Under the pieces are notes generated by a model that was not told the origin of the DNA, ran no database searches, and saw only the letters and a list, made by a program, of their open reading frames with translations. Below are positions 41,180 to 60,945 of a DNA stretch of 64,000 bases, piece after piece. Origin of the DNA: Agrobacterium tumefaciens (GTDB lineage Bacteria > Pseudomonadota > Alphaproteobacteria > Rhizobiales > Rhizobiaceae); NCBI RefSeq assembly GCF_005221325.1, contig NZ_CP039888.1, positions 124,001-188,000 of the forward strand. The letters run 5' to 3'. Position 1 is the stretch's first letter. Each line of letters starts with the position of its first letter. Made by a program: the position numbers and the translations under genes.

Positions 41180-41211
41180 GATGGTGTGCTCTCACCGAGC
41201 CAAAGCATGCA

Positions 41212-42093: not shown

Positions 42094-42202
42094 TATCCTC
42101 TGTGAAGATCGCGGGCGCGCATGCGGTATGCGAATTGGAATTGACTATCGGCTTCCTGTTCACTGATATCCGCCATCGGTAAAATATCCAGGCAAGATTC
42201 GA

Positions 42203-42604: not shown

Positions 42605-42703
42605 AACATCATGCAACATGATGCAACAGCATGGCTTCACATTGGACTTGAATTTTCTGCGTTCACAGACTATATCAAGGTCACTTCCCGAAAGGGGCTT
42701 GCG

Positions 42704-42734
42704 GGCCTGTCCAGCGTGAAAGCGCTGGCAGGCC
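42704..42734. repeat. Hairpin after the MazF-like gene
   Basis: GGCCTG-T-CCAGCG-TGAAAG-CGCTGG-CAGGCC: a 12-bp stem with one bulged T in the 247-base gap between the MazF-like gene and the convergent tail-fibre gene. Possible bidirectional terminator. No gene supported in the gap. Confidence 0.5.
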
Positions 42735-42851
42735 TAAATCATTTCTGGCGACAAGCTTACCGGCCGCCGCCGCCACCTGGTTTGCTGATCTCCGGCGGAA
42801 AGGTGCAGCCCGTGTCGGCGTCTCTCATACCCTTGCCAGCTGCTCCATTCC

Positions 42852-43748: not shown

Positions 43749-44341
43749 TGAAGTATTTCCTTCGTTGCTTGGTCGATGAGAGGATCGTGTTCCGGAGCCT
43801 GGGAGGCCATGGCTTCCATCCGATCAGCAATGTCGTTGCAGAGGTCGTGAGCGATCTTGCGCAGCGCAACCCGAACGCCGTGCACGCCTTCCTTGGCGAC
43901 GATCGACGCCAGTTCATCGGCGCGGTTAGGCAGACGATCGACTATTAGGCTGATCTCGTGCTCAACCGAACGCACGGCTTCATTCAATTTGTCCTGACGA
44001 ACGAGGGATGACACTTCCTCGTCGAGCCGGATTTTATCGCGGCTGACACGCATCCATTCCGCCTGTCGCTTGGCTTCTTCAAAACTGTCACTCTGAAACG
44101 TTTTCTCGGCCGGCGGCGCTGCCATCTTGGCGGGGTTCATGAACCGCTCGCGGTGATGATCGTAATGGGCAAGAGATATCCGAAGCACCCGGCCGCGTCC
44201 GTCGCGATCAACCGGAACACCTTTCATCACGGCGAGGACGGCCTGTATCGTCTTCGAGACGGCCTGTTTCGTCACACTGTCACGGGCAGCGATTTGCTCT
44301 GCTGACCACATGAAAAGATTATCCGGGGTGTCATCGCTCAT
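43745..44341 (-). CDS. Nu1-like terminase small subunit (putative)
   Basis: 198 residues. N-terminal winged-helix of the Nu1/DNA-packaging type (MWSAEQIAARDSVTKQAVSKTIQAVL, then VDRDGRGRVLRISLAHYDHHRERF), followed by a helical middle (AKRQAEWMRVSRDKIRLDEEVSSLVRQDKLNEAVRSVEHE) as in small-terminase proteins. It would bind the packaging site. In a complete phage the large terminase follows, but here the next gene is the tail fibre, coupled by ATGA. Start ATG 44341. Confidence 0.65.
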   Translation of the reverse strand: MSDDTPDNLFMWSAEQIAARDSVTKQAVSKTIQAVLAVMKGVPVDRDGRGRVLRISLAHYDHHRERFMNPAKMAAPPAEKTFQSDSFEEAKRQAEWMRVSRDKIRLDEEVSSLVRQDKLNEAVRSVEHEISLIVDRLPNRADELASIVAKEGVHGVRVALRKIAHDLCNDIADRMEAMASQAPEHDPLIDQATKEILQ

Positions 44342-44678
44342 GGCGACCGCCTGAACTGGTACCAGACCGTAGACGATCCGAACCATGCGCAGATCCCGTC
44401 ATCGAGGGATAGTCCGGTACAGGAGAAGCGATAGAGAGTGGAGCGCCAAGGTCGTCCGCCCTTGGCGCTCCTACACCGGGACCTCTCATTGCCCCCTCAG
44501 GAGAAGGAGAAACCGAGGGAGCCGAGATCGACGGCGATGCTTTTTTTCCGTTGCTGGCGAACGGCGAGGTAAAGTCGGAAGCCAGCGCAGCGGGCGCGCT
44601 TGCCGATATCCGCCGCCGTTTCCACCTGTTTTCCTTTTGCGGCTTGCCGCCCTGATCGGCGCCAGCCATGATAGTCAA
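44331..44678 (-). CDS. Small hypothetical protein
   Basis: 115 residues, Ser/Pro/Gly-rich and likely disordered. It is called because its ends overlap its neighbours in the coupled gene chain (44675-44678 and 44331-44341). No domain recognised; could be a non-coding frame. Confidence 0.4.
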   Translation of the reverse strand: MTIMAGADQGGKPQKENRWKRRRISASAPAALASDFTSPFASNGKKASPSISAPSVSPSPEGAMRGPGVGAPRADDLGAPLSIASPVPDYPSMTGSAHGSDRLRSGTSSGGRHER

Positions 44679-44827
44679 CCCCGCCGAGAAACAGCCTTGC
44701 TGACGAGCGATGTCAGCTTGGCGGTTTTTTTCGGCTGCGTTTCATCGCTGCTTTTTTCCGTGTTGCGATGATGGTTGGCGACAATCTTGCGTAGCTTGTC
44801 GCGGCCTTTCTTTTCAGCTTCAGGCAT
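44675..44827 (-). CDS. Very small basic protein
   Basis: 50 residues, Lys/Arg-rich (EAEKKGRDKLRKIVANHHRN). Included since its start overlaps the end of the 44820-45209 gene and its stop overlaps the next start. No family recognised. Confidence 0.4.
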   Translation of the reverse strand: MPEAEKKGRDKLRKIVANHHRNTEKSSDETQPKKTAKLTSLVSKAVSRRG

Positions 44828-45209
44828 CCTGTTGATCCTTTGTGTTAGCGCCCATTTTTGAGAACAGAGACCGTGACGCCTCCGGCCCAAGTGTGGTTTG
44901 AAAGAGAATGTGGCGGAGGAACGGTACGCTTTCAGCGCCGAGACTGGCGGCCTCGAAAGCCTTCAAAATCCCTTCGCACCGAAACCGGAACCGCTCTAAC
45001 GCGACATCGACGGCAGACGACAGTTCGGCCGCTCCGGGGTGTCTGGCCGCCAGATCGACAACGCAGGCGCTGCGGTCCCGTCGCTGGTCACTCAGGACGG
45101 CGAGCAGGCGATCCAGTTCCGAACTCCGCTCTGCCGCCTCCTGTCGAACGCCACGAGCGCGGCATTCGTCGAGGTATGTCCGTCTCGGCGTGAAGGTGAT
45201 GACCGTCAT
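44820..45209 (-). CDS. Hypothetical phage-type protein
   Basis: 129 residues, helical (RTYLDECRARGVRQEAAERSSELDRLLAVLSDQRRDRSA). No family assigned. Coupled by a 4-base overlap to the gene upstream. Confidence 0.6.
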   Translation of the reverse strand: MTVITFTPRRTYLDECRARGVRQEAAERSSELDRLLAVLSDQRRDRSACVVDLAARHPGAAELSSAVDVALERFRFRCEGILKAFEAASLGAESVPFLRHILFQTTLGPEASRSLFSKMGANTKDQQDA

Positions 45210-45736
45210 GGCAGCGCGTCCTGATGGGCGAGAACTGCACGGGGGTCGGCGTCGGCGCGGCGATTGACCGTAATGCCGGATGTTTCCGCCTCGCGAATGA
45301 GTGCTTCTTCCGAAAGCTCGGCGTTCAACAAGGATTGATCCAGGTCGGCAAGCCGCTTGGCGCGCTCCGCGTCCGTCAGGCCTTTTTCGCTCTGATAGAT
45401 TTCCGATATTTCCTGCTTCATGGCGCTCGCCAGAACGTCACCCTGATAGGCAACCAGCGCGTCCGCCAACACGTCAAAACCGGGCAAGCGCCAGCGGCCG
45501 GGATCGGTTGCGAAGCGCGACGGGCTGGGGGCGCGCTCCATCGCATGGGTGACGGCGCTGGAAACCCACATTTCGGCGCGGCGATGCGCCGTCGCTTCAT
45601 CGACTGGCATGCGCTCAATCGCATCGCGCTCCGCCTTCAGGTCTTCGACCTGTGACCTGATGTTCTCGAGGCCTTGCGAGAACGCTGCGAAAACGGAGCG
45701 TACGCCAGCCAGTGCGTTTGCCGGTTTATCGGCCAT
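45206..45736 (-). CDS. Hypothetical phage-type protein
   Basis: 176 residues with coiled-coil-like segments (LENIRSQVEDLKAERDAIERM). Start ATG 45736; an earlier frame to 45814 is unsupported. Member of the coupled leftward chain of element 1. No family recognised. Confidence 0.6.
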   Translation of the reverse strand: MADKPANALAGVRSVFAAFSQGLENIRSQVEDLKAERDAIERMPVDEATAHRRAEMWVSSAVTHAMERAPSPSRFATDPGRWRLPGFDVLADALVAYQGDVLASAMKQEISEIYQSEKGLTDAERAKRLADLDQSLLNAELSEEALIREAETSGITVNRRADADPRAVLAHQDALP

Positions 45737-46085
45737 ATGGATCAACTCCCATGAAATTCGCGCAGTTGGTGAAAAGCTCTCCGATCGACTGGCGGCGCTC
45801 ACTGAGCGGCTCAAGCTCCGCTCTCATCTGGGTTATCTTCGCGTCGATCTGCCGTATTTGAGCCTCAAGCGCCTGCTTTTTCCGCGCCAACTCGTCGCCG
45901 TCGATCCGCAGGATGTTCTGGGAAGCATCGTGCAACATGCGGGCGATATCGGCTTGGAGGCGACCTTTCGCGGCGGCCATATCGCGGATTTTTTCCGAGA
46001 GATCGTTGCAACTCGAAAAAATGGCGTCGCGCTGCGCACGGATAACCTCAAGCCTGCCGGGGTCTATCGTGGGTGATGAAGTCAT
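45726..46085 (-). CDS. Hypothetical coiled-coil protein
   Basis: 119 residues, mostly helical and coiled-coil (ARKKQALEAQIRQIDAKITQMRAELEPL). AAAGGAG precedes the ATG at 46085 with good spacing. Overlaps the next gene by 11 bases. Function unknown. Confidence 0.6.
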   Translation of the reverse strand: MTSSPTIDPGRLEVIRAQRDAIFSSCNDLSEKIRDMAAAKGRLQADIARMLHDASQNILRIDGDELARKKQALEAQIRQIDAKITQMRAELEPLSERRQSIGELFTNCANFMGVDPYGR

Positions 46086-46131
46086 TCGTCGGTCTCCTTT
46101 GGTCGTCACGCTGTCACGCATGTTCGGAAAT

Positions 46132-46611
46132 TCAAAACGCACTTGAATTTCCGGAATGAAGAATTTGAGCCAGCCGCCGTTCGCCGGGGATGCAATCGCC
46201 GGAGCGGAGGATTTTCCACCAGGTGGCTGCAGGCTCGGCAGCAGGTGCGTCGAAAGATTTGCTTTCGCGGGGCCATCTGTCCGACTGGTAGCGCTTCGCA
46301 GATGCCGCCATCATTTTCGCGGCGGCTGGCGGCGGCAGCTTCGACCATTCCGGCACGGCGGCCCATAGGCCAAGCAAGCGGCGGTCGCGCCGGCCCAGTT
46401 CAAGCTTGCGAACCGGCGATGTCCCGCCCCATGTCTTGAGGCCAAGCTCGGCATACAGCGAGGTTTTGAAACCGCTGGCGATGCTGGCATTGAGCGCCTC
46501 CATCAGGAGGATACGGCTTCGCTCCGGGATGCGCCGGCCACCCATGAGGTGTTCCACGAGATCGAAGATAGCCTGCAAGGCGGGATCGGTTGAGCGCTTC
46601 TTGTCAGCCAT
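46132..46611 (-). CDS. Hypothetical phage-type protein
   Basis: 159 residues (DPALQAIFDLVEHLMGGRRIPERSRILLMEALNASI). Basic and helical, no domain recognised. Its promoter side (46612-46889) holds an iteron-like repeat array. Confidence 0.55.
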   Translation of the reverse strand: MADKKRSTDPALQAIFDLVEHLMGGRRIPERSRILLMEALNASIASGFKTSLYAELGLKTWGGTSPVRKLELGRRDRRLLGLWAAVPEWSKLPPPAAAKMMAASAKRYQSDRWPRESKSFDAPAAEPAATWWKILRSGDCIPGERRLAQILHSGNSSAF

Positions 46612-46727
46612 GGAAGACGCCCCCGAAACCGCGAAAGCGATTTGGAACAGGTGTTCCATTTTCAGGCCGCAGCGGCAATTCAGCTACCGAAACGCACCCG
46701 CCGTTTCCGGCTGCAACCAATGCGTTT

Positions 46728-46778
46728 GCGTTAACCGCAGGCGTTAACCAAGCGTCAACCCTGACAACCCTGACAACC
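46728..46778. repeat. Iteron-like direct repeat array
   Basis: GCGTTAACC at 46728-46736 and 46741-46749, GCGTCAACC at 46752-46760, then CTGACAACC at 46761-46769 and 46770-46778. The five units are 9 bases long at 9-13-base spacing. The array lies in the 278-base gap between two leftward genes, just beyond the replication-type HTH protein. It may be an origin or regulatory iteron. Confidence 0.55.
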
Positions 46779-46889
46779 CAATTTTTCGACCTGTTTGACT
46801 GGCGCTTTTCCGGGGTCGTCCCGCCCCGCAGAGGGTCAAATCCGGGTACGGTCCCTACACCCAGGGGGTTGGGTCGGTGGCCTTTTCGG

Positions 46890-47375
46890 TCACACTTCGC
46901 CATCGTCCTCACCCTCCTTTTCGAGGTGAAGATGACAGAGCGTGCGAAACCATTGCCATTGCTTATCGCTCAGGTGGAACTTGCCCTTCGAAGCCTTTGC
47001 TAACGCCAGAACGTTTTCGACAAAGTCTCGCTGCTTGTCCGTCAATCCGCCGCCTTCCAGCAACAGGCGTCGAGCATCGCCTATGACCTCATCACGCGTT
47101 GGATGCTGGCTTTCAGCAGGACACGGCTCTGGCTCTGGCGGGTCGCGATAGACGATCTTTTCCTGAACCACGACACGCTCGCGATACACGATGACCTCTA
47201 CCGTTGCAGGCGGCTTTGTCAGCGCGGCGGTGAGATCGTGCCATCCCAAACCAGCGCCGCAAAGGGTTCGCCCAATGGCCGAAACCGCCGCTACCACTTC
47301 GCCGGCATGGTTGCTGGATAGCATCGGCAACAGCTTCCCGAGCTTTTTCACTGTTTTCTGATCGATATCGCCCAT
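46890..47375 (-). CDS. Conserved-type hypothetical phage/island protein
   Basis: 161 residues. Starts MGDIDQKTVKKLGKLLPMLSSNHAGEVVAAVSAIGRTLCGAGLGWHDL, a pattern I know from rhizobial prophages and islands next to a replication HTH protein; the C-terminal part has TDKQRDFVENVLALAKASKGKFHLSDKQWQWF. Function unknown. Start ATG 47375. Confidence 0.65.
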   Translation of the reverse strand: MGDIDQKTVKKLGKLLPMLSSNHAGEVVAAVSAIGRTLCGAGLGWHDLTAALTKPPATVEVIVYRERVVVQEKIVYRDPPEPEPCPAESQHPTRDEVIGDARRLLLEGGGLTDKQRDFVENVLALAKASKGKFHLSDKQWQWFRTLCHLHLEKEGEDDGEV

Positions 47376-47395
47376 CGGTTCCCGGTATCCCGATT

Positions 47396-48136
47396 TCAGC
47401 CGTACGCCGCCGAGGCGGTTGAGCCTTTCCACCCCCATCCCCGAGTTGTGGGTTTGTCTCTCGGCTCATCAGGCTGGTCATTCCGGTTCGATGGGTGGCA
47501 AGGGTGGCCCTCATACTCCCTCTCAAAAGCCGTTTTTTCCGGTTTGTCGTTCTCAAAGAGAGAGGTTTTAACTTGAGTCCATGAAGTGCGTAATTTTTTG
47601 AACCCTATCTTCATGGCAAGCCACTTCATCCAGCTAAAGGAAATCACCTTGATGACGTTCGTCAGGCTCTTTCCAAACTGGCGGCGCCGCTCCTTCACGG
47701 AAATATGCCCGAGTTCCTTCGAGCCTCCCTTGCGAAGCGCGTTCTGAACGGTTGTACGGCTCACACCGGCTATGCTGGCGATTTCATCCAGGCACATTTC
47801 GCAGCGGTTGCCGTGCCGCTTACATTCTTCGGCAATGACGGCCAGCGCCGCGCCCTCGCCGGCGGAATAGTGTTCCCGGATCTCGGGCGGCATATTGGAC
47901 GGCCCGCTTATCCGGCGCTTTCTGGCGCGCCGCTCACGGCTCTTGTCGGTTGACATGCGCTGACGCCGAGCTTTCTTGACGACGCTCTCTGCCGCCCCGC
48001 TGGCCGTCTGCTTCTCGTAAGCCTTTGTTGCGGGTCTGGTGGCCTTACCGTTGGCGAAATAATCGTCATGGGATCGAGCGGAGCGGGAAACGATACGACT
48101 GCGAAGCAGCGCGGATGATGGCCTGTATTCCGTCAT
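47396..48136 (-). CDS. HTH protein, replication-initiator-like
   Basis: 246 residues. Basic N-terminal segment (RRARKRRISGPSNMPPEIREHYSAGEGAALAVIAEECKRHG) followed by a helix-turn-helix (CLDEIASIAGVSRTTVQNALRKGG) and EERRR-like KERRRQFGKSLTNVIKVISFSWMKWL. This resembles HTH proteins found in alphaproteobacterial islands near replication functions. Assignment as initiator is inference. Start overlaps the stop of the gene upstream. Confidence 0.55.
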   Translation of the reverse strand: MTEYRPSSALLRSRIVSRSARSHDDYFANGKATRPATKAYEKQTASGAAESVVKKARRQRMSTDKSRERRARKRRISGPSNMPPEIREHYSAGEGAALAVIAEECKRHGNRCEMCLDEIASIAGVSRTTVQNALRKGGSKELGHISVKERRRQFGKSLTNVIKVISFSWMKWLAMKIGFKKLRTSWTQVKTSLFENDKPEKTAFEREYEGHPCHPSNRNDQPDEPRDKPTTRGWGWKGSTASAAYG

Positions 48137-48426
48137 TCACTCGCTCCCGGCTTTGAGAGCGAATGAGCAAGCTTCGCCGCCTCGGCGGCTTCCATGACCG
48201 TCAGGGCGAAGCGTCGGCGGATTGTGACGACTGGATGAGAGACCAAAGGATTGCGGCAAAGCCACATGGCTGCCTCGCGAACGCGGGGCTCAATGGCTCG
48301 CAATGAGTTTGACAAGTCGCCGCTAAGTGATTGACTTTCAAACGCGGGTTTGACGGAAATTTTTTCGTAAGGCTTTGTTTTTGGCGCTTCACGCGGGGAT
48401 TGAAAATCCGCGTGTCGGTGGTTCAA
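48133..48426 (-). CDS. Hypothetical protein, start unclear
   Basis: Up to 97 residues. The first codons of the open frame read out of the att repeat (the reverse of tRNA sequence), so the true start is probably downstream, within the VREAAMWLCRNPLVSHPVVTIRRRF part. Coupled (4-base overlap) to the HTH gene. The C-terminal part resembles short DUF-type island proteins, not assigned. Confidence 0.4.
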   Translation of the reverse strand: MNHRHADFQSPREAPKTKPYEKISVKPAFESQSLSGDLSNSLRAIEPRVREAAMWLCRNPLVSHPVVTIRRRFALTVMEAAEAAKLAHSLSKPGASE

Positions 48427-48446
48427 ATCCGCCTCCGGGCACCATT
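48397..48446. repeat. Attachment-site repeat, right copy (element 1 / element 2 junction)
   Basis: 50 bases identical to 35848-35897, including the tRNA-Phe anticodon loop, T-arm and CCA. There is no D-arm or 5' acceptor, so it is not a functional tRNA. It ends element 1 and is the left att of element 2. A third copy is expected beyond the window. Confidence 0.93.
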
Positions 48447-48544: not shown

Positions 48545-49633
48545 TCATTCTTCTTCAGGCTCGACCGTGTCCTGCATCAACTCCACGGCGCTCTTTGCAA
48601 GCACCTTCTGACGTGCTGCCCTAGTGTAACGCGTGACCTCCTTCGAGGTTGTATGTCCGGTTATGGACATGATCTGGTGTTCGCTCGCGCCGCGATCGGC
48701 GAGCCGCGCGGCCGCTGCCTTACGCAGGCCGTGGGCGCTGCAATGCGTCAAGTCTGCCTCGTTACACCGCTTCCTGAACCAGTTACCAAAGCCATTAGAC
48801 GTGAACGGCTTTTTGAATTCGGTAACCAGAAGCGTCATTTCCCCGCACGGTCCGGCGTCGATCGCCTTCTGCAAATGTGGATGGATGGGCATCTCCAGTT
48901 TCCGAGGCTTGCTATTCCTGCCCTTAAACTGGGTGAAGCGCAGCCAGCCCTTACTGATGTGCTGCTTTCCAAACAGAATAATATCGCTGCGGCGCTGGCT
49001 GGTGTATAGCATCAAGGTCAGCGCCAGATAGGCCTTTGTGCCGATCGGGTGACGCGCCTCGAACTGCTCGACCTCCTCCGGCGTCCATGAATGGAAACCC
49101 TCCGATCCCGTCTTGAAATAGGGTATGTCGCGGGCCGGGTTGGTGGCGCAGATCTCGACGGCTGGCATAATCGCCCAGTTAAAAACAGCGCGTAGCGCCT
49201 TCAGGCGTCCGTTGGCCGACTCCGGCACGTCTGCTTTCCTGTCCCTCAGAACGCGCACGGCCTTGGCGTTGAACGACGACAGAGGGACATCTTCGAAAAG
49301 CTTTGATGATTCTGGCTTGATCGGTTCGGCCCAGATGCTTTCAATGATCAGTTTGCGAACATATTGTGTTCGCTTGTCGAGCTGCTTGTATTCGGCGCTC
49401 TGGAAATATTGCTCGCACAGCCAGCGCAGCGTTCCTTTTACGGAGAGCTTGGGGCCGGTCCTGTCTTCCTTCATTTTCCCGTTCAGTGCGTCATAGTAGG
49501 CGGCATTGAACTCATCGCTGCCCGGTACGCCTGGCAGCCTTATTTTTTTCTGGCCCTTGCGGCGAAAGTAAAAACGAAGAACGCCGTCGGTGTTGTCCTC
49601 GACGACGTACTTTTTGCTGAATTTTTTCGGCAT
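48545..49633 (-). CDS. Tyrosine-type site-specific integrase (element 2)
   Basis: 362 residues. Core-binding domain followed by the catalytic domain with Arg I in LYTSQRRSDIILFGKQHI, box II CSAHGLRKAAAARL (HxxR) and MSITGHTTSKEVTRYTRAA, which contains the GH and the nucleophilic Tyr. It lies 98 bases from the att repeat, as expected. It is a different sequence from the element 1 integrase. Its start directly abuts the excisionase stop (TAAATG). Confidence 0.9.
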   Translation of the reverse strand: MPKKFSKKYVVEDNTDGVLRFYFRRKGQKKIRLPGVPGSDEFNAAYYDALNGKMKEDRTGPKLSVKGTLRWLCEQYFQSAEYKQLDKRTQYVRKLIIESIWAEPIKPESSKLFEDVPLSSFNAKAVRVLRDRKADVPESANGRLKALRAVFNWAIMPAVEICATNPARDIPYFKTGSEGFHSWTPEEVEQFEARHPIGTKAYLALTLMLYTSQRRSDIILFGKQHISKGWLRFTQFKGRNSKPRKLEMPIHPHLQKAIDAGPCGEMTLLVTEFKKPFTSNGFGNWFRKRCNEADLTHCSAHGLRKAAAARLADRGASEHQIMSITGHTTSKEVTRYTRAARQKVLAKSAVELMQDTVEPEEE

Positions 49634-52599: not shown

Positions 52600-53732
52600 C
52601 AGGAAACCCTCATAGGCATGACGATGTAATCTTCGTCGGCGTCGCCATCTGGCGTGAAATGTCCCGGCGCGCCGGGGTCCGTGCCGTGGAGACAAAAAGA
52701 TGTGGTGGAAATGCTGGACAGGGTTTCGTTGACGTATGTCGGATTGAAACCCCTCAGGTGGCTGTCGCCGTCGAATTCGATATCGACCGGCTCGGACGCG
52801 TTCTGGCCGTCCCGCGCCACCAGCTCGATCTGCATCAAGCCTTGCTGGATATCGAGGCGGACGGAAGACTTACTGATGTCGCCGGCAATGACGCTCACGC
52901 GGGTAATCGCCTTGCTGACAGTGGAGCGATCGGCGCGCAGGAAGACATTGCTGCGCGCGGGAATGATGCGGTGGTAATCCGGAAACTGGCCGTCAATCAG
53001 TTTTGAAACAAGGGTGATATCCTCGCACTCGACGACAATCTTCCGGTCATTGATGAAGAATGAGCAAGCGGCCTTGCTGTGGCCGAACAGCTTGCGGATT
53101 GCCTGAACCGTCTTGATCGGGATGATTGGCGGCTCGAATGCATTCAACTCGCTGGGCGAGATCCGCGATACGGCCATCTTCAAGCCATCAGTGGCGCATA
53201 TTGCAAGCTTGCCGCTCTCCAGCCCTTCGACGAAGGTTCCGGACAGATAGGGTCTATCCTTCATCGTCGTGTTCATTGCATAGGCGACGCGACCCAATGC
53301 ATCCGTCAGAACGCTGGCCTGCACCGCAAACGCCAATGGCGGCCGATCTGCTCCGATGGATGGAAAATCGGAAGCGGGCAGGGTATGCAGGTTGAAACGC
53401 GAACGTCCGCCACTCACTGTGACCTGACCGGGGAACTGTCCTGGCTTGACTGTGATCTCTGCCGACTCCGGCATGTTCTTTACGATCCGGTAGAACTCAT
53501 CGGCTGCTATGGTCAGGCCTTCGCCGGCCGCTGCCTCCAGCAGCTCGCAGCGCGTCCCGATTTCAAGATCAAGGTTGGTGCCGCGCAGCAGGAGGCGTTC
53601 GCCATCTGGCTGCAGCAGCACGTTTTCGAGGATCGGAATGTTGTCCTTGGCCGGAACGGCTTCGGTCACCGCCGACAAGGCCACCAGAAGCTCGGACCGA
53701 TGAGCGCGGAAATGGATAGGATCTTTACTCAT
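52599..53732 (-). CDS. dnaN: Phage-encoded DNA polymerase III beta sliding clamp
   Basis: 377 residues, close to the usual 366-373. Three domains of the clamp fold are present: HFRAHRSELLVALSAVTEAVPAKDNIPILENVLL, DFPSIGADRPPLAFAVQASVLTDALGRVAYAMNTTMKDRPYLSGTFVEGL and LIDGQFPDYHRIIPARSNVFLRADR, ending in DEDYIVMPMRVS. Would form a ring on DNA to tether polymerases. The C-terminal residues MPMRV match the clamp end. A second dnaN inside a prophage is unusual, and it follows the DGR reverse transcriptase in the same operon. Confidence 0.9.
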   Translation of the reverse strand: MSKDPIHFRAHRSELLVALSAVTEAVPAKDNIPILENVLLQPDGERLLLRGTNLDLEIGTRCELLEAAAGEGLTIAADEFYRIVKNMPESAEITVKPGQFPGQVTVSGGRSRFNLHTLPASDFPSIGADRPPLAFAVQASVLTDALGRVAYAMNTTMKDRPYLSGTFVEGLESGKLAICATDGLKMAVSRISPSELNAFEPPIIPIKTVQAIRKLFGHSKAACSFFINDRKIVVECEDITLVSKLIDGQFPDYHRIIPARSNVFLRADRSTVSKAITRVSVIAGDISKSSVRLDIQQGLMQIELVARDGQNASEPVDIEFDGDSHLRGFNPTYVNETLSSISTTSFCLHGTDPGAPGHFTPDGDADEDYIVMPMRVS

Positions 53733-53739: not shown

Positions 53740-54090
53740 TCAGCTCCGTTTTCCGGTGAGGAGGTCGGCAATCCCACGTTCGTGGGAGGGGGGGGCAAGA
53801 TCAAAGTGACGCGACAGGATTTCCATCGCCTCATCAACGTTGCCTTCTGCCATACGCCGGTATGCCTCGCCGACATGATAAAGGTCGCTGTCGTCGAGCT
53901 TATGCAGCTGATCGTAGGCGTCGATGATGTCGTCTTCGTCCAGGTCGCCGATTTCGACCTGTACCTTCGCATTGAAAGTCAGATCAGAAACAATCGCAGG
54001 GTGAAGACAATGCTTCTTGAGCCATGCGGCGATACGCTCGTCATTGTGATCATCTGAAAAATTGATCGTGATTTCCTGATTTACCTGCAT
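53740..54090 (-). CDS. Hypothetical acidic protein
   Basis: 116 residues, acidic with many Asp (EIGDLDEDDIIDAYDQLHKLDDSDLY). No recognised domain. Sits 7 bases ahead of dnaN and overlaps the HTH gene by 10 bases, so it is in the operon. Confidence 0.6.
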   Translation of the reverse strand: MQVNQEITINFSDDHNDERIAAWLKKHCLHPAIVSDLTFNAKVQVEIGDLDEDDIIDAYDQLHKLDDSDLYHVGEAYRRMAEGNVDEAMEILSRHFDLAPPSHERGIADLLTGKRS

Positions 54091-54374
54091 TGGCGGCTCT
54101 CCAGAATTTTCGCGTACATGCTGGGGCAGGGCAGTGTGATGCTGCTGCCGAAGCGGCGGATGACGACGGTGGTGAAATCAAACCTTGCCTGTTGCCAGGT
54201 GTTGCCGTTGATCGGCGCGACCAGGCCAAGCTCCTTGCATCGCGTCGTGACGCGGCTGAAGCTAGCGCCGTAGTGGTCTGCGATCTGGTTCCGGCCCATG
54301 CCGCGCTGAACGCAGCGTGCCAGCATGACGGGTGACGGCAATTTGCTGCCGCCGCGCTTATCGGTGTGCCGCAT
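54081..54374 (-). CDS. Small HTH-like protein
   Basis: 97 residues. Residues about 20-50 (MLARCVQRGMGRNQIADHYGASFSRVTTRCKELGL) look like a helix-turn-helix. It begins 17 bases inside the end of the reverse transcriptase gene on the same strand. Function unknown; its position next to the DGR suggests operon membership. Confidence 0.6.
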   Translation of the reverse strand: MRHTDKRGGSKLPSPVMLARCVQRGMGRNQIADHYGASFSRVTTRCKELGLVAPINGNTWQQARFDFTTVVIRRFGSSITLPCPSMYAKILESRQCR

Positions 54375-55368
54375 GATGGACACTCCTTTCGTGGACATTG
54401 AGGGATTTGAGAAGATTGCGGCTGTCCGCCCACTTGGCGTGACCGACCCACGCGGCAAGGAATTTCTCCAGCCGCTGGTGCTCGCCGCCGGCACGATAGG
54501 CGCGGATTTTGCGCTTTGCCCGCGCAACACTGTCACGGCGCAGCAGCTTGTGGGTGGGCCAGATGCGGTAACCGACGAAGTTAGCGCCACGGCTGACGGG
54601 TTGGATGCTCCATTTGGAGAACCTGAGGCCCAGCCGCTCGCGTGACAGCTCCTCGATCGAGGCGCGGACCTTGCGCAGATGCTCCGACGATTGCCCGAGA
54701 ACCACGATATCGTCCATGTAGCGATACCAGTAGCGCTCGCCGAGTTCCTGTTGCAGGTGCCGGTCCACCACGCCGCCGTAAATGTTGGCGAAGATCTGCG
54801 ACAGTAGGTTGCCGATCGGCAGGCCGATGCCATCACGCGGCAGCATGGTCTCAATCAGGCGCAGCGTGGCGCGGCAAGAAATCTTCGCTTCTATCAACCG
54901 CCACAGCGCGCCGTGCTCGATGCTGGCGAAGTAGCGGGAAAAATCCGTCTTGAGGATATAGAGCGGTTCTGCGTCGTGCGTCAGCCGCCGCATATCGGCC
55001 TGCAATGCCGTTGCAGCTGCATGTGTTCCCTTGCCCGGACGGCAGGCAAAGGTGCGCGGCAACAGCGTCGCCTGAAATATCGGCTCGATGACGGCACACA
55101 ATGCATGCTGCGCCACGCGGTCCTCAAATGGCAGAGCCGATATCATCCGCTCCTTCGGATCGAAGATCTTGAAATTATGCGGCTGGCCGGGACGATATGT
55201 GCCGTCGCGCATGGCCTGCGACAGATCCTCCAGATTGAGGATCGAGAACTCATTGAACTCCAGAAAGCCCGTCGTCAGGCGCTTGCCAAGGGTGGTGCGC
55301 CTGAAGGCGTGACGCATGTTGGCGTCTGCCGTGATCTTTCCGATAAGGTTGCGGTATTTCTTTCCCAT
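54358..55368 (-). CDS. DGR reverse transcriptase
   Basis: 336 residues. The catalytic box YMDD is at about 217-220 (RYWYRYMDDIVVLG) and the motif IGNLLSQ at about 185-191 is the DGR-type [LIV]GxxxSQ signature. Also present are ILKTDFSRYFASIEH (motif with the first catalytic Asp) and SKWSIQPVSRGANFVGYRIW at the end. In this family the enzyme copies the template RNA with adenine infidelity. I chose ATG 55368. The open frame continues upstream to 55731 because it reads through the template repeat, so automatic calls would give a wrong 457-residue protein. Confidence 0.95.
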   Translation of the reverse strand: MGKKYRNLIGKITADANMRHAFRRTTLGKRLTTGFLEFNEFSILNLEDLSQAMRDGTYRPGQPHNFKIFDPKERMISALPFEDRVAQHALCAVIEPIFQATLLPRTFACRPGKGTHAAATALQADMRRLTHDAEPLYILKTDFSRYFASIEHGALWRLIEAKISCRATLRLIETMLPRDGIGLPIGNLLSQIFANIYGGVVDRHLQQELGERYWYRYMDDIVVLGQSSEHLRKVRASIEELSRERLGLRFSKWSIQPVSRGANFVGYRIWPTHKLLRRDSVARAKRKIRAYRAGGEHQRLEKFLAAWVGHAKWADSRNLLKSLNVHERSVHHAAHR

Positions 55369-55560
55369 GATAATCGCTCCGGATTGCCGGTCGCGGGTTT
55401 CGACGGCGTTGCCGCTACTCCCCGCTTTACCGGACCCTGTCATGTGTTCGCCGAAGCCGGACGATCGGGCCGACCACCCTGTCAGCTGGGCGTAAACCGC
55501 CGTGCCGACCGTGGAAGATGACCGGCGTGGCCGTGGCTCGCGCCGAGTCGTGAATGGATC

Positions 55561-55681
55561 GTCGCTCGCGCCGCGCGCCCCGATGTTCTCGTTCGAGTTC
55601 TCGGGCCAGTAGTCCAAGTTCGCGTACCGGGAGCCGGCGTTCTCGCCGTTGATCCAGGAGCCGCCAAAGATGGACGGACGC
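55561..55681 (-). repeat. DGR template repeat (TR)
   Basis: 121 bases between the Avd-like gene and the reverse transcriptase, homologous to the two VRs at 56129-56249 and 57115-57235. Homology ends sharply at both ends. In minus-strand reading the adenines are concentrated in AAC codons. The GC-rich 3' end (GGCGCGCGGCGCGAGCGAC) is identical in all three copies and is the likely initiation-of-mutagenic-homing sequence. It has no downstream hairpin like those of the VRs. Confidence 0.95.
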
Positions 55682-55688
55682 AACAGCA

Positions 55689-56066
55689 TCATGACCCCGA
55701 CCGCCCGTTGCCTTTTGCCGATCTGATCCACCCGCCGAGCATCGATCCCGTTTCAGCGATGTGGCGCAGTGCCACCTTGTGCTGGTGATGGGAAAGGAAT
55801 TTCAGTTTCGGATCGGAGGCAAAGCGCAACCAGAAGCGCAGCGTTGCCAGGTTGGCGTCTGCTGCGTAGAGCTTTGAGGCCTGTTTCGACTTCGCTGCCT
55901 GATAAAGAAAACCGACCTGGTCAAACAACAATCCGATCAGCCGGTCCCGCAGCACGCCATGGCTGCGAGGGCATTTCTGGAAGATCGGATAGAGGTAGGA
56001 TACGGCTTTCTCGAATTTCTCGACGATCGCCAGATCCTGCGGATTTACATATTCATCTCGTGTCAT
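55689..56066 (-). CDS. avd: Accessory variability determinant (Avd-like)
   Basis: 125 residues, all-helical, in the usual Avd size range. Sequence EKFEKAVSYLYPIFQKCPRSHGVLRDRLIGLLFDQVGFLYQAAK and KHQHKVALRHIAETGSMLGGW-like C-terminal helices fit the four-helix-bundle Avd proteins, which bind the reverse transcriptase and template RNA. Position between the target gene and the TR is canonical. Family call is by length, helical pattern and context. Confidence 0.85.
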   Translation of the reverse strand: MTRDEYVNPQDLAIVEKFEKAVSYLYPIFQKCPRSHGVLRDRLIGLLFDQVGFLYQAAKSKQASKLYAADANLATLRFWLRFASDPKLKFLSHHQHKVALRHIAETGSMLGGWIRSAKGNGRSGS

Positions 56067-56090
56067 GGCTGGCGATCATCCGTTTCAGGG

Positions 56091-56112
56091 GACCCGCGCT
56101 TCCGCGCGTGTC
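56091..56112 (-). promoter_or_regulatory. DGR target-recognition hairpin after VR1
   Basis: On the minus strand GAC-A-CGCGC-GGAA-GCGCG-G-GTC: a 5-bp GC stem, one mismatch, three more base pairs and the loop GGAA. It lies 16 bases beyond the VR1 3' end and overlaps the stop codon. Same layout as the VR2 hairpin. Such hairpins with GNRA-type loops mark the target site in characterised DGRs. Confidence 0.8.
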
Positions 56113-57049
56113 AGGCATGGTTCAGGTGGTCGCTCGCGCCGCGCGCCCCGAAGTCCTCGAACGAGAACTCGGGCCAGTAGCCCAAGTCCGCGTACCGGGA
56201 GCCGGCGTCCTCGCCGCTGAGCCAGGAGCCGCCAAAGATGGACGGACGCGGGTTATCCGGATCGCCGTCCGTGCCCCACTGCCACATGGTGCCGGTGATA
56301 TCGAACAGGCCCCACTTGCTGATGAAGTTGATGGCGTTCTCATCAAGCGCGCCCGTCACGGTCGGCTCGCTGTCACGGGAGGCGCGTTCCTTCACGCCAT
56401 AGGCGGCGGCGAAGAATTCTTCCGCGCCGAGAAGGCGCTTGCCGTGACCTGCGTAGATTTCCACCGCCGTCGCATAGTCGAGCTTCCTGTATCGGCTCTG
56501 GCCGCCCAACTTCATCGGCAAGTCGCGGCCGTCGGCGATGATCGCCCTGGCGCGGCTGGCGCCCTGTTCGTGGTGGTCGGCGTCCAGAAGATAGATATCC
56601 GCCCAGAACAGTTTTCCGCCCAAGGTCTCGACCAGCGCCATGCCGCGCGGATCTGCGCAGGCGGGGCGGAAGCCGATATCCCAGATGGAATAAGGGTTGA
56701 TTGCAGGCGTGCTGTCGCCACCGTCACGGGAACCCGCATTGCCGCCCGGTGCAAAATGAAAGCCGCCGAAAAACTTCTCTGCTGTGGGCTTGCTGTCCAG
56801 CAGTTCGGCGACCGGAAACCCGTCATCGTCGATGCCGACGCCATAATCACGGCCCGGCACAAGCTCGTCGAACAGGACGGGAGTATCTTTGTCGAAGAAA
56901 TGGGGGCGCTCACTGGTAGTGATCATGGTGCCCGCCTTGATGATAAGGTCGAGACGACCGGATTTTGCAAGCACCGGGGCAGATGCCACGGGTCCAACAC
57001 GCTGGATGGAAATGCCGCCAAGGGTATTTTCGGCTGTTGCTGTCATCAT
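56111..57049 (-). CDS. DGR target protein 1 (FGE-sulfatase/C-type-lectin fold)
   Basis: 312 residues. The C-terminal part has the phage receptor-binding/FGE-like layout: FHFAPGGNAGSRDGGDSTPAINPYSIWDIGFRPACADPRGMALV, GKRLLGAEEFFAAAYGVKERA and NFISKWGLFDITGTMWQWG, ending in the variable repeat GGSWLSGEDAGSRYADLGY... (about 267-307). The N-terminal third differs from target 2. The product probably displays a diversified binding surface on the virion or host surface. ATG 57049 with CAGGA upstream is preferred over the open frame to 57181. Confidence 0.93.
   Translation of the reverse strand: MMTATAENTLGGISIQRVGPVASAPVLAKSGRLDLIIKAGTMITTSERPHFFDKDTPVLFDELVPGRDYGVGIDDDGFPVAELLDSKPTAEKFFGGFHFAPGGNAGSRDGGDSTPAINPYSIWDIGFRPACADPRGMALVETLGGKLFWADIYLLDADHHEQGASRARAIIADGRDLPMKLGGQSRYRKLDYATAVEIYAGHGKRLLGAEEFFAAAYGVKERASRDSEPTVTGALDENAINFISKWGLFDITGTMWQWGTDGDPDNPRPSIFGGSWLSGEDAGSRYADLGYWPEFSFEDFGARGASDHLNHA
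56129..56249 (-). repeat. DGR variable repeat VR1
   Basis: 121 bases at the 3' end of target 1, aligned gap-free to the TR at 55561-55681. Eleven substitutions, all where the TR has A on the coding strand. The GC-rich homing end is unchanged. Confidence 0.95.
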
Positions 57050-57076
57050 AAGAATCCTGATTGAGAGGAGGAAAGA

Positions 57077-57098
57077 GACCCGCGCTTTCGCGCGCGTC
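57077..57098 (-). promoter_or_regulatory. DGR target-recognition hairpin after VR2
   Basis: Coding-strand GAC-G-CGCGC-GAAA-GCGCG-G-GTC, with the classic GAAA tetraloop. It lies 16 bases beyond the VR2 end, exactly the same distance as for VR1. Confidence 0.8.
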
Positions 57099-57972
57099 AG
57101 GCAGGCGTCAGGTGGTCGCTCGCGCCGCGCGCCCCGATGCTCCCGACCGAGAGCCCGGGCCCGTAGCCCAAGTTCGCGCACCGGGAGCCGGCGTCCCCGC
57201 CGCTGAACCAGGAGCCGCCAAAGAGGGACGGACGCGGATCGTCGATGTCGCCGTCTGTTCCCCAGACCCAGAGATTGCCGGTCGCCTGCATGAGGCCGTA
57301 TAGGCTGGTGCGGGCGGCATCGAGGCCGGTTGTACGTGGGCGATTGTCGGCGCTGGAGCGTTCAGTCACGCCGTGGGCGGCGGTGCGGAACTCGTCATAG
57401 GTCAGCAGGCGCTTGCCGTGACCTTCAAGGATGGATTTCGCGGTCTTGTAATCGAGCAAGTCCAGTGTGCTGCCGGTGGCTGGCGTCACACCAAGGCGGC
57501 TGGTGCCGTGCACGGCGTGATCGACGCCGAGAAGATAGATATCGACCCAGACGATGTTTCCGGCAATGACGCGCACCATGCCGCGAGGATCGGGGCAGGC
57601 GGGGCGATACTCGATATCCCAGAGCGAATGCGGGTTGATGGCGGGATTGCTGTCGCCGCCCTTGCGTTCAGTCGCATTGCCGCCGGGAGCGAAGTGGAAA
57701 CCGGCAAAGAAATCCGCTTTCAGGGGGTTGTCGTTGGCGACGGTGGCAAACAGATCGCCCATGGCATTGATGCCGACAGCATAATCGCGACCGGGAACCA
57801 GCTCATCGAGCGCAATCGCCGTTTCGCGGTCATAGGAATACGTGCGGTCACCGATCTCGACCAGCGAACCGGCCTTGATGGAGATCGAGGTCGGGCCGGT
57901 AGCGATCAGGATCGGCGCGCTGGGGCTTGGATTGTGAATGCTGATTGTCTGTGGTTCGGCAGTCGTTGTCAT
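57097..57972 (-). CDS. DGR target protein 2 (FGE-sulfatase/C-type-lectin fold)
   Basis: 291 residues. Close paralogue of target 1: FHFAPGGNATERKGGDSNPAINPHSLWDIEYRPACPDPRGMVRV, GKRLLTYDEFRTAAHGVTERS and TGNLWVWGTDGDIDDPRPSLFGGSW, with the variable repeat at about 246-286. The segment before target 1 differs most in the first 60 residues. ATG 57972 is preceded by AAAGGACC. It is transcribed before target 1. In VR2 the codon for the TR Trp (TGG) is GGG, the only non-adenine change. Confidence 0.93.
   Translation of the reverse strand: MTTTAEPQTISIHNPSPSAPILIATGPTSISIKAGSLVEIGDRTYSYDRETAIALDELVPGRDYAVGINAMGDLFATVANDNPLKADFFAGFHFAPGGNATERKGGDSNPAINPHSLWDIEYRPACPDPRGMVRVIAGNIVWVDIYLLGVDHAVHGTSRLGVTPATGSTLDLLDYKTAKSILEGHGKRLLTYDEFRTAAHGVTERSSADNRPRTTGLDAARTSLYGLMQATGNLWVWGTDGDIDDPRPSLFGGSWFSGGDAGSRCANLGYGPGLSVGSIGARGASDHLTPA
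57115..57235 (-). repeat. DGR variable repeat VR2
   Basis: 121 bases, gap-free against the TR, 15 substitutions of which 14 are at TR adenines. The exception corresponds to TR position 55608 (VR2 57162), T to G on the coding strand. Confidence 0.95.
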
Positions 57973-58005
57973 GGGTTGGTCCTTTTTGGTTTGGGCTGGA
58001 CGTGG

Positions 58006-58218
58006 TCAGACGCGTGCCGCAGCGGCGTGCATGCGTTCGATTTCGGAGAGACGGGTGGCGCAGAGAGCCACGCCGCCAAGGCAACCGAGCAGAAGCACGG
58101 CTGTGACGCAGGCGAGGAAAAAGCGGCCATAGGGAACGGCGGCTTCTTTGCGGAAGGTGCCGAGGTCATGGCGGGTCTGCGGGATCATTGGGGAAATATG
58201 GATCAAAGCTGCCTCCAT
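58006..58218 (-). CDS. Small membrane protein
   Basis: About 70 residues with one strong membrane helix (FFLACVTAVLLLGCLGGVALCA). It has a basic, polar N-terminus and a short tail (RLSEIERMHAAAARV). Function unknown; could be a small phage envelope or lysis-related protein. Lies between the small ORF at 58274 and target 2. Start uncertain (58218 or 58188). Confidence 0.5.
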   Translation of the reverse strand: MEAALIHISPMIPQTRHDLGTFRKEAAVPYGRFFLACVTAVLLLGCLGGVALCATRLSEIERMHAAAARV

Positions 58219-58273
58219 CCGTTTCGGATGCCGCCTCGCGGGGGAGAGACGGACACCGAAACCGGACGTGGCG

Positions 58274-58456
58274 TCAGGCGGCTTCAAGAAGCGCGTCGTC
58301 GTTCGCCTTCATGCGTGCCTTCTCTTGGAGGCGGTCGATATCTGCGTTGGGGAAGTAAAGGTTCAGCTGTTCACGGGTGCAGCCTTCGCCAAAGCGGCGC
58401 ATCGCGGCGGCCATGGCATCGATCTTTTCATTGTCGTTCATCGCACTGACGTTCAT
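58274..58456 (-). CDS. Small hypothetical protein, first gene of the leftward operon
   Basis: 60 residues (DNEKIDAMAAAMRRFGEGCTREQLNLYFPNADIDRLQEKAR), helical. GGAGACC precedes the ATG at 58456; the frame extends further without support. It lies nearest the repressor operators, so it should be the first gene of the DGR-containing transcript. No family recognised. Confidence 0.55.
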   Translation of the reverse strand: MNVSAMNDNEKIDAMAAAMRRFGEGCTREQLNLYFPNADIDRLQEKARMKANDDALLEAA

Positions 58457-58560
58457 GTCGGTCTCCGTCCGTTGAAAGGGAGACCGGACGGCATCGAGGC
58501 GAGGGGGTAGGGTGCCGTCCGGTCTTTTCCAAGCCATGTGGTTTGCTCGGATGGACGGAA

Positions 58561-58611
58561 TTTCGCGATAATCGCAAAATAAGTCAAGAAGTATTTTCGC
58601 GATTATCGCGA
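58561..58611. promoter_or_regulatory. Repressor operators upstream of the leftward DGR operon
   Basis: Two sites: TCGCGATAATCGCAA (58563-58577) and the perfect palindrome TCGCGATTATCGCGA (58597-58611). The same element occurs between the repressor and Cro-like genes (59756-59804). This links the promoter before the DGR operon with the lysogeny switch. The 281-base gap 58457-58737 contains no gene. Confidence 0.7.
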
Positions 58612-58737
58612 TTATTGTTGCGATGGGCCGCGACAGCGGTGCGCAGATCGCAAAACCGAATCAGCAAAAACCGACTCGACTCTTTTGTGCGAAGATGCTT
58701 TTTTAGCGTGAACGAAACAAGAACAAGGGGCGAGGAA

Positions 58738-59004
58738 ATGAAGCGGCCGCCAATCGATCACCCGGATGCGATGCGATTAATTGTGGAGCTTTCCAACCTC
58801 TATGTGGCCTGCGACGACTGCGGCCATTCTCGGATTCTTGGTCTGGATAACCTGCGAAAAGCGAGCGAGCTTGGGGTGCATAACTACACGCAATTATGCC
58901 GGAAGATCAGGTGCAGCGAGTGCCCAAAAACAATTCCGGCATTTAGGAATTTGACGATCCGGCCGACGTGGCGCGCCGAATACTCTATTCACAGCAGCGC
59001 GTGA
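58738..59004 (+). CDS. Small protein with two Cys pairs
   Basis: 88 residues. CDDCGHSR and RKIRCSECPK are two CxxC pairs that could bind zinc. GAGGAA precedes the ATG. It is divergent from the leftward operon and its 3' end overlaps the convergent repressor gene by 16 bases. No family recognised. Confidence 0.55.
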   Translation: MKRPPIDHPDAMRLIVELSNLYVACDDCGHSRILGLDNLRKASELGVHNYTQLCRKIRCSECPKTIPAFRNLTIRPTWRAEYSIHSSA

Positions 59005-59720
59005 AATACGACCTTGTGAATGCTGAAGACTTTGTCTGTCGGGAATTCCAATTCGTGTGTTTCACCAGATCCTGGATTGTACTGATAAAGACGCAAAACG
59101 TCGCCGCTTTGGCTCTCGAACCGCTTAATGTAGCTCGACACTTCGTCATCTTCGAAATCACCAAGGATCTGAACGATTACGTCGTCGCCTTTGCGGTAGC
59201 GGGCATGGGGATTAGCCCACGCTGTCTCGCCATGATAGAAACGCGGCTCGCCTGAAGTTCCTTGTATTTGAACCGCGTAAGCCCCTTCGACGCCTTCCAA
59301 GCCAGGCGGACAAAAAACCCGCGCAATGTCTTGGCCGTTCATGATGAAGCGCCCGTTCGGACCCGCAGAAATCTGGCCCCTTAGAGGAATGGAGACGTCG
59401 CCAGGAAAGGCTTGCCAGCGAGGGGGGAAGCTTGCGTTTGGTTTCGGTCGTGGCGCTGAAGGCTGCGTTGGAAGATCGTTCGATGGGTTGAGCCAGCTGG
59501 CCATTTCCTCATAGCCGGGTGGAAGCTCCTGAAAGAACCTGGCGATACCTTCTATCTCTTGGAGGCTGATTTTCCGCGGCTCTTTAGTGTTTGGCTTCAT
59601 CCTGCTCAGCATCGTCGAGGAGACGCCGATCGTCTCTGCCAATTCGCTGGCCGTTCCGCGCGGAGAATTCTTGAGCTTCTGGTCGAGCCAGTTCTTAATT
59701 TCGTACTGAGGATCTTGCAT
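58989..59720 (-). CDS. CI-type phage repressor with S24 peptidase domain
   Basis: 243 residues. N-terminal helix-turn-helix (NSPRGTASELAETIGVSSTMLSRMKPNTKEPRKISLQEI), then an S24 LexA-like domain: the probable Ala-Gly cleavage site at SIPLRGQISAGPNG, the Ser in QIQGTSGEPRFYHG (usual GDSMEP here GTSGEP) and the Lys in SSYIKRFESQSGDVL. Self-cleavage after DNA damage is expected from the family. ATG 59720; upstream frame not supported. Divergent to the Cro-like gene across operators. Confidence 0.9.
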   Translation of the reverse strand: MQDPQYEIKNWLDQKLKNSPRGTASELAETIGVSSTMLSRMKPNTKEPRKISLQEIEGIARFFQELPPGYEEMASWLNPSNDLPTQPSAPRPKPNASFPPRWQAFPGDVSIPLRGQISAGPNGRFIMNGQDIARVFCPPGLEGVEGAYAVQIQGTSGEPRFYHGETAWANPHARYRKGDDVIVQILGDFEDDEVSSYIKRFESQSGDVLRLYQYNPGSGETHELEFPTDKVFSIHKVVFHALL

Positions 59721-59755
59721 AGGGCAGACTTTCGCGTATTTCGCAAAAAAATCTA

Positions 59756-59814
59756 TCGCGATAATCGCAACAAATAGATTGACATTAAATCGCGATAATC
59801 GCAAAGATCGCGAT
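59756..59814. promoter_or_regulatory. CI/Cro operators of the prophage switch
   Basis: TCGCGATAATCGCAA at 59756-59770 and again at 59790-59804, plus ATCGCGAT at 59807-59814 just before the Cro-like ATG. TTGACA at 59779-59784 is the probable -35 of the rightward promoter. Further TTCGCG half sites precede at about 59731. Confidence 0.75.
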
Positions 59815-60060
59815 ATGAGCGAAAACCATCTAGAGCCAGCGAAGTCTGTGATCGCCAAAATTGGCATCGAGAAAGTGTCTGCCGTAACCGGCAAGCACAT
59901 ATCTCGGGTCTATCGTTGGATGTATCCAAAGGAGCGCGGCGGTACTGGCGGCATCATCCCGCAGGCCGATGCTTTCGTTTTGCTTGCCCACGCACGGTCG
60001 CAGGGTATCGAGCTTTCGCCCGATGATTTCTTTCGAATTTCTCAGGAGGCCGCAGAATGA
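59815..60060 (+). CDS. Cro-like regulator
   Basis: 81 residues. AKSVIAKIGIEKVSAVTGKHISRVYRWMYPKERGGTGGIIPQADAFVLL is the HTH pattern of Cro-like proteins, including the G-G-x-IP loop. It is divergent from the CI-type repressor with three operator elements between. ATG 59815 lies directly after an operator and lacks a clear ribosome-binding site, so translation may be leaderless; an in-frame TTG at 59779 coincides with a -35 box and is less likely. Confidence 0.8.
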   Translation: MSENHLEPAKSVIAKIGIEKVSAVTGKHISRVYRWMYPKERGGTGGIIPQADAFVLLAHARSQGIELSPDDFFRISQEAAE

Positions 60061-60077
60061 TGGCGCTCCATTTTTTC

Positions 60078-60153
60078 CGCAGCGTAGGGAAGCGGTCATC
60101 CCGCGTGGTTCATACCCACGATGTCGCAGGTTCGAATCCTGCCGCTGCAACCA
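60078..60153 (+). tRNA. Phage tRNA-Met, initiator-like (CAT)
   Basis: 76 bases: acceptor CGCAGCG / CGCTGCA with a C1:A72 mismatch, D-arm GGGA/TCCC, anticodon stem CGTGG/CCACG with loop TTCATAC (anticodon CAT, 60111-60113), T-arm GCAGG/CCTGC and encoded CCA. The C1:A72 mismatch is the hallmark of bacterial initiator tRNA; the three G:C pairs at 29-31/39-41 are only partly kept (TGG/CCA). It lies 17 bases after the Cro-like gene. Confidence 0.85.
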
Positions 60154-60477
60154 ATCCCGGCGTTTTCCTGGCAGAGCGCGCACGGGATGCCGGACGGAAG
60201 AGGTTTTCCATACCTGCGGACCCTTCCGTCCGGATCGCCTTTCCTGTTGCGCGAGGGTTACTCCTTTCCCCTCTGCGCACCCGCCGTGATACCTCTCCTC
60301 CCGGCTCCGGCGGCCTTTTTCTTTCGTTGTCGTCATCGTTGTCTCTCCAGCTTCTGCCGCCGCTCATGTGGCGGGGCTGCGGTTGATCTGATGGGCAACG
60401 AATAGGCCGCGCCTGCGCGGGCTTCACCGAATCCTTTTCCGTTTTTCTTTCCTTGACGCGTTTTCAGGGGTGTTTTC
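60154..60477. other. Untranslated stretch after the phage tRNA, with an inverted repeat
   Basis: 324 bases without a supported gene. CCGGACGGAAG (60190-60200) and CTTCCGTCCGG (60223-60233) form a perfect 11-bp stem. The reverse-strand open frames here are antisense to the tRNA. TTGACG at about 60453 may belong to the promoter of the next gene. Confidence 0.6.
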
Positions 60478-60945
60478 GTGCGCACTATTTCCGAAGAAGA
60501 AATCCGCAGCCTGAAAGGCGCGACAGACGCCAGCTACAAGCTGGGCGGCGGCGTAACCGATTTTCCGCTGCTGACACGCGTCAACGTCTCGACGCTCTCC
60601 AAGTACGCCAGCTTCAATGATGAGAATGGTGAAGCGCTGATCCCGATCGATGTCGCCATCGAGTCGGATCGCCGCGCGAAAAGCCCCGTCATCGTCGGCG
60701 CCATGGCACGAGCCCTCGGCTTCAAGCTGACCATTGATGATGACCACCCCCACGATGCCCGCCCCGTTACCGAGACGGATGCGATCGATCTCATGAGCGA
60801 GGTCATGGATGTCGTGCGCGAACTTCAGGCCGCCCAGGCTGCCGGAACAATCGGTACGGCTGCCGCCAAAAAGCGGATCGGCAAGGAAATCCACGAAGCA
60901 ATCCGCGAGCTCAAAGAGATGCTCGTAAATATAAAGAAAGGCTGA
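60478..60945 (+). CDS. Phage hypothetical protein
   Basis: 155 residues, GTG start with CAGGGG upstream. Sequence EEEIRSLKGATDASYKLGGGVTDFPLLTRVNVSTLSKYA at the start, helical C-terminus with LQAAQAAGTIGTAAAKKRIGKEIHEAIRELKEML. No domain recognised. First gene of the early rightward block after the tRNA; followed 5 bases later by the ParB-like gene. Confidence 0.65.
   Translation: MRTISEEEIRSLKGATDASYKLGGGVTDFPLLTRVNVSTLSKYASFNDENGEALIPIDVAIESDRRAKSPVIVGAMARALGFKLTIDDDHPHDARPVTETDAIDLMSEVMDVVRELQAAQAAGTIGTAAAKKRIGKEIHEAIRELKEMLVNIKKG

Follow-up and report, generated by a model that had tools for sequence, protein, structure and literature searches.

The 64,000-nucleotide stretch of Agrobacterium tumefaciens DNA analysed here (contig NZ_CP039888.1, positions 124,001 to 188,000; the window) carries, inside a prophage, a diversity-generating retroelement (DGR) whose parts all lie on the minus strand between 57972 and 54358. 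We consider it likely that this is a complete DGR of the BPP-1 type, with two tandem target genes that differ from a single template repeat (TR) almost only at adenines, and that the target proteins are made early, under control of the phage repressor, and not together with the tail. The preliminary description of this stretch had proposed a complete two-target element within a prophage, its parts in canonical order: two targets with C-terminal variable repeats (VRs), avd, a 121-bp TR and a DGR-type reverse transcriptase (RT) with the motifs IGNLLSQ and YMDD. All of this was borne out, and the parts are as follows.

57972–57097, minus strand: target 1, an Mtd-like variable protein of 291 residues without a beta-prism
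57235–57115, minus strand: VR1, with 15 mismatches to the TR, 14 of them at TR adenines
57098–57077, minus strand: hairpin after VR1, GAAA loop, 8 of 9 pairs formed
57049–56111, minus strand: target 2, a second Mtd-like variable paralogue of 312 residues, in the target-2 clade
56249–56129, minus strand: VR2, with 11 mismatches to the TR, all at TR adenines
56112–56091, minus strand: hairpin after VR2, GGAA loop, 8 of 9 pairs formed
56066–55689, minus strand: avd, accessory variability determinant, 125 residues (PF22296 bAvd, E-value 4e-28; phrog_3206, 'Avd protein of DGR')
55681–55561, minus strand: TR, 121 bp, 23 adenines
55368–54358, minus strand: DGR reverse transcriptase, 336 residues from the ATG at 55368 (phrog_1423, E-value 1.7e-114; PF00078)

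The open reading frames are intact across the whole cassette. The frame of the RT stays open upstream through the TR, back to a GTG at 55731 (457 residues); translation of the TR is reported for ACA phages in the accessible part of PMC10612066.

The placement of the differences between the repeats is that of a DGR. The one mismatch that falls outside the TR adenines is a T>G in VR1, and over 121 bp the hypergeometric probability of such placement is 1e-9 for VR2 and 1.5e-11 for VR1. The TR contains six AAC codons, and changes at its adenines never yield a stop in the VR frame, which is also true of one of the other two frames. There are 17 variable codons, 11 of which share alignment columns with the 13 of Mtd.

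The same cassette was found in one same-genus genome among 38 others searched (G026) and in four virus records (L017 to L020). As the preliminary description had anticipated, the TRs of these siblings are nearly constant (0–2 differences from that of the window) while both VRs differ mainly at TR adenines, with 12–18 differences each from their counterparts in the window. Across the six genomes the TRs differ at three sites, none of them an adenine. At these sites the VRs carry the base of their own TR in 36 of 36 cells (two VRs in six genomes), whereas agreement fell to 88 of 180 cells in a control in which VRs were compared with the TR of another genome. Such sharing of non-adenine marks is a natural sign of copying from the TR and, since the VRs match their own diverged TR, suggests that they have been overwritten since those TRs split. 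A further pair of records (L054 and L057), 94% identical across the 3.5-kb cassette, has 28 VR differences, all at TR adenines, and none in the TR. Record L016 is identical to the window, probably represents the same strain and thus contributes no evidence of variation. In a wider set of 81 VR copies, from which eight duplicate loci and two loci without a separable TR had been removed, 946 of 1864 adenines were changed against 44 of 7863 other sites, a contrast that is somewhat inflated because the finder penalises non-adenine mismatches and so biases the second figure low. We conclude that diversification by the DGR is well supported, and that the sequence signs of recent copying are strong.

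In BPP-1, homing depends on an inverted repeat downstream of the VR, and phage DGRs have GC-rich stems of 7–10 bp with GRNA loops at 4–34 bp from the VR, according to the available portion of Guo et al. (PMC3240598). A GC-rich, GRNA-loop hairpin of this phage type follows both window VRs. When four closing pairs were required, a hairpin with a GNNA loop was present after 69 of the 79 VRs tested, including both in the window. Under a stricter rule (at least seven of nine pairs) hairpins were found after 68 of 79 VRs; TRs gave 3 of 53, and shuffled sequences 20 of 1580. Among 51 distinct sequences the stems covary, with 82 cells of two-sided change compared with 23.6 in shuffles; since the inner four pairs were required for picking the hairpins, the independent evidence lies in the outer five. 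Two more distant Mtd relatives, L065 and L067, have target frames open to 589 and 734 residues, and a search for a GNNA hairpin after their VRs found none.

The prophage is bounded by 18–19-bp copies of the 3' end of tRNA-Phe at 48429 and 99166 and extends 35 kb past the window. From left to right it comprises the integrase, leftward early genes, a sliding clamp, the DGR, two small genes, the repressor and rightward genes. The late side is rightward, with a Mu-like contractile structural module that begins with the terminase at 70.7 kb and ends near 89 kb (window-extended coordinates). Distances from the DGR are 12.7 kb to the terminase, 20.6 kb to the sheath gene and 30.5 kb to the probable fibre gene; the cassette shares its strand with the integrase, and the late genes are on the other strand. 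A DGR belonging to the tail module was accordingly ruled out, the structural genes of this Mu-like myovirus being away from the cassette. The neighbours of the DGR are listed below, with identities to genes of Agrobacterium phage Rivra (RIVRA numbers).

48545–49633, minus strand: prophage integrase, near the left attachment site
52602–53732, minus strand: phage sliding clamp, the third of the early genes that follow the DGR (phrog_947; 95% identical to RIVRA_44)
54084–54374, minus strand: early gene downstream, RIVRA_46 homologue (84%), overlapping the 3' end of the RT gene by 17 bp
58009–58456, minus strand: pair of small early genes preceding target 1, with RIVRA_50 (39%) and RIVRA_51 (97%) as homologues
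58563–58611: two palindromic putative operator sites, 34 bp apart, ahead of the leftward operon, with TTGACT between them (minus strand)
58989–59720, minus strand: CI/LexA-like repressor (phrog_4, E-value 7e-16; PF00717 S24 peptidase, E-value 1e-4, just below the cut-off)
59756–59804: two matching putative operator sites, 34 bp apart, upstream of the repressor gene, with TTGACA between them

The operator-like palindromes are of the TTGCGATTATCGCGA type, and each pair encloses a TTGAC box. Both pairs are kept in L020, where one copy is weaker. We infer that they correspond to a pL/pR-like pair under CI, and it is a reasonable extension that the targets are expressed early and under CI control. 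Since the cassette adjoins the repressor and is far from the tail genes, the variable proteins are likely to be made early and not as ordinary tail parts. Lysogenic read-through from cI seems less likely because an open reading frame on the plus strand (58738–59004) converges on the end of cI.

This placement recurs in relatives. Among sense-strand open reading frames neighbouring the DGR at 32 loci (115 of 160 upstream and 110 of 139 downstream), repressors of phrog_4 account for 10 of the 115 upstream neighbours, an unnamed family for 7 and clamps for 6, and integrases of phrog_1 are the most frequent downstream (15 of 110). No tail family was among the 25 commonest of the 74 upstream or 111 downstream PHROG families at these loci; with 49 and 86 rarer families outside the tally, a tail family present in one or two loci could be hidden. 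In 14 of the 18 virus records with an integrase match (PF00589; three of the 14 under the Pfam cut-off), the integrase lies 0.7–5.8 kb downstream of the RT on the same strand. Many of the virus records are fragments; matches to Baseplate_J (7 of 26 records) and to tape measure proteins (9 of 27, three under the cut-off) are without exception at least 17.7 kb from the DGR. It appears, then, that most of the relatives that can be mapped share the early-side placement. Named isolates with related cassettes include Rhizobium sp. BK602 (L073) and Shinella pollutisoli (L081).

Both targets have the beta-sandwich and C-type-lectin domains and the C-terminal VR of the Mtd family. The scaffold proposed in the preliminary description, of formylglycine-generating enzyme (FGE)/C-type-lectin type, stands as a likeness at the level of the fold, the C-type-lectin fold of DGR targets being present, but not as a Pfam match, since the significant one is to the second domain of Mtd (PF21916); phrog_11262 and PDB entries are also matched. 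The targets start at about Mtd residue 50–62, and neither has the N-terminal beta-prism, by which, in the part of PMC10743442 available, Mtd presumably attaches to the fibre. Relocation of the prism to a separate gene was rejected: tblastn with Mtd residues 1–62 (E-value 1e-4) gave, besides BPP-1, only a weak match inside the Rivra gene RIVRA_20. In a tree of 73 of 79 targets built with the VR removed (four partial rows and both L054 targets were left out), the 23 target-2 sequences form one clade with support of 100/100 and the first-position targets fall outside it. A second target is also present at 21 of the 23 loci of this clade, the exceptions being the bacterial genomes L074 and L075. 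The tree indicates that the targets descend from two old paralogues. Variants of the arrangement include L040/L041 (3683–9447), where a clamp-like gene lies in the 3.5 kb separating two targets that both match one TR, and L079 (6530–9850), where the cassette has three targets.

Closely related cassettes are found beside unrelated tails. The window, L017 and G026 have a common type of contractile tail, with sheaths 90–91% identical; that of the window and L017 is Mu-like, and for G026 the comparison covers the fetched stretch up to the tape measure, within which sheath and tape measure are shared. L020 is 84% identical to the window in target 1 and 88% in the repressor, and its tail is siphovirus-like: the distal-tail and major-tail proteins belong to long-tail families, the terminase is of the Rivra type, and Baseplate_J gave no match. 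Comparison of the late regions of L020 and the window recovered, as shared features, a small gene at the beginning and a protein encoded between the portal and capsid genes but no convincing shared tail protein; four further matches (E-values 0.0007–0.009) are in short or antisense frames and appear to be spurious. In the target-2 clade, the sequence from the window clusters with those of L019 and L020 (100/97), apart from those of L017 and G026. Together, the related cassettes with unrelated tails and the grouping of target 2 suggest that the cassette follows the immunity side of the genome and not the tail.

The BPP-1 element (mtd-avd-TR-brt; AY029185/NC_005357) has the same gene order, an RT 53% identical, an Avd, an Mtd-like target with a C-terminal VR and, as far as the accessible text of PMC3240598 goes, a GC-rich hairpin with a GRNA loop downstream of the VR. 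It differs in having a single target with a beta-prism, on the late structural strand and adjoining a tail fibre gene, whereas here two prism-less targets lie on the early side behind the repressor. Chromohalobacter phage YPCBV-1 (OP380511) has an Mtd-like target of similar size (349 residues), avd and RT in the same order, but lists one target, a few genes behind its baseplate genes. Faecalibacterium phage Lagaffe_CP, in the portion of PMC11792537 available, has two targets, both like BPP-1 Mtd, and differs in host group; the pair itself is therefore not new. Agrobacterium phage Rivra (PV764937) has the same early module (the homologues listed above, and a CI 46% identical) but no DGR, the slot being filled by RIVRA_47–49, and it has long-tail genes with no sheath annotated. 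No account of this cassette or of a DGR in an early operon was found among the titles listed in the literature searched, a weak negative since most subscription journals were outside the search, and the early, tail-independent arrangement was likewise not met with there.

By homology to BPP-1, RNA of the TR would be reverse transcribed by the RT together with Avd, with errors at adenines, and the resulting complementary DNA would replace VR1 or VR2 at its hairpin-marked 3' end. In the lysogen, CI occupying the operator-like pair would keep the operon off until induction or infection turned it on.

Several other explanations bear on this scheme. The RT matches the general RVT_1 Pfam model, which cannot separate RT classes, and could in principle be that of a group II intron or a retron beside repeats that only resemble a TR/VR set. 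However, among the phages searched its nearest relative is BPP-1 Brt (52.8% identity), its best family is the DGR family phrog_1423, an Avd is present and the repeats are adenine-biased, which leaves this explanation a negligible probability; the same RT matches and the adenine-placed mismatches rule out chance repeats. A decaying DGR, its parts persisting and its variation ancestral but now inactive, would be in keeping with the non-adenine change in VR1, the mismatched pair in each window hairpin and the lack of variation between L016 and the window. We regard it as quite improbable in view of the open frames throughout, the many VR and few TR differences among the five siblings, and the overwriting of VRs from their own TRs after these had diverged.

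More weight attaches to a working DGR whose targets are both ordinary virion receptor-binding proteins, encoded early and later assembled onto fibres, which would give tropism switching like that of BPP-1. The preliminary description took the targets for receptor-binding or surface proteins of the phage, and their homology agrees with this; their location on the early side by the repressor, with the late genes on the other strand, the missing prism, the unrelated tails and the grouping of window target 2 with siphovirus-tailed L020, not with same-tail L017 and G026, do not. We give the virion model somewhat less than an even chance. The least certain part of our interpretation is the role of the products, where we lean slightly, at roughly even odds, towards soluble hypervariable binders that are not tied to one tail; the virion model is nearly as likely. 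A number of observations weigh against early, tail-independent targets of a working element. Mtd, the best-studied member of the family, is a virion receptor-binding protein, and the alignment of target 1 with it extends over almost its full length; also, a fibre tip conserved in structure between the two tails could escape sequence comparison. The operator scan found no matching pair in siblings L013 and L019 and one weak pair in L017 (control 0–1), and a promoter consensus scan of 54000–60500 yielded a single promoter-like site, which lies away from the operators; shuffled sequences gave more. Four of the 18 records with an integrase match (L045, L049, L058 and L071) have no integrase downstream on the same strand, and each window hairpin has one mismatched pair of nine. 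Expression, virion placement and homing are all judged here from sequence.

Phage DGRs are usually read as devices for switching tail tips. A broader proposal, which we put forward tentatively and with more doubt than confidence, is that temperate phages of rhizobia and their kin have uncoupled the DGR from the tail. The prism-less pair of Mtd paralogues, travelling with immunity and early genes and exchanged among phages of the contractile and siphovirus-like kinds, would then supply hypervariable intracellular binders from the first minutes of infection. If so, these phages would evolve intracellular binders by the same retrohoming that others apply to tail tips, and the uses of the binders could include, for example, capturing variable proteins of host defence or shutting out rival phages. 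With repressor-linked, prism-less targets beside unrelated tails, the question of whether DGR targets need to be virion proteins becomes directly testable, and Rivra, which lacks a DGR, provides a natural comparison. Outside Bordetella, the BPP-1 homing model gains independent support from the covariation of the hairpins and from the natural transfer of TR markers.

Other features of the region were also recorded. A tRNA-Met gene lies inside the prophage at 60078–60153, beside the repressor; the equivalent site in Rivra holds a tRNA-Leu. Another integrated element, some 12.5 kb long (35880–48429), separates the prophage from the tRNA-Phe gene; it is flanked by the same attachment core and has its own integrase at 35969–37051; Pfam matches over the cut-off were obtained for two of its ten proteins scanned, the integrase and an Arc-like regulator. 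Past the window, close behind the likely tail fibre gene, is an acyltransferase-3/SGNH protein (L089, 5964–7868) that may modify the receptor, as in serotype conversion.

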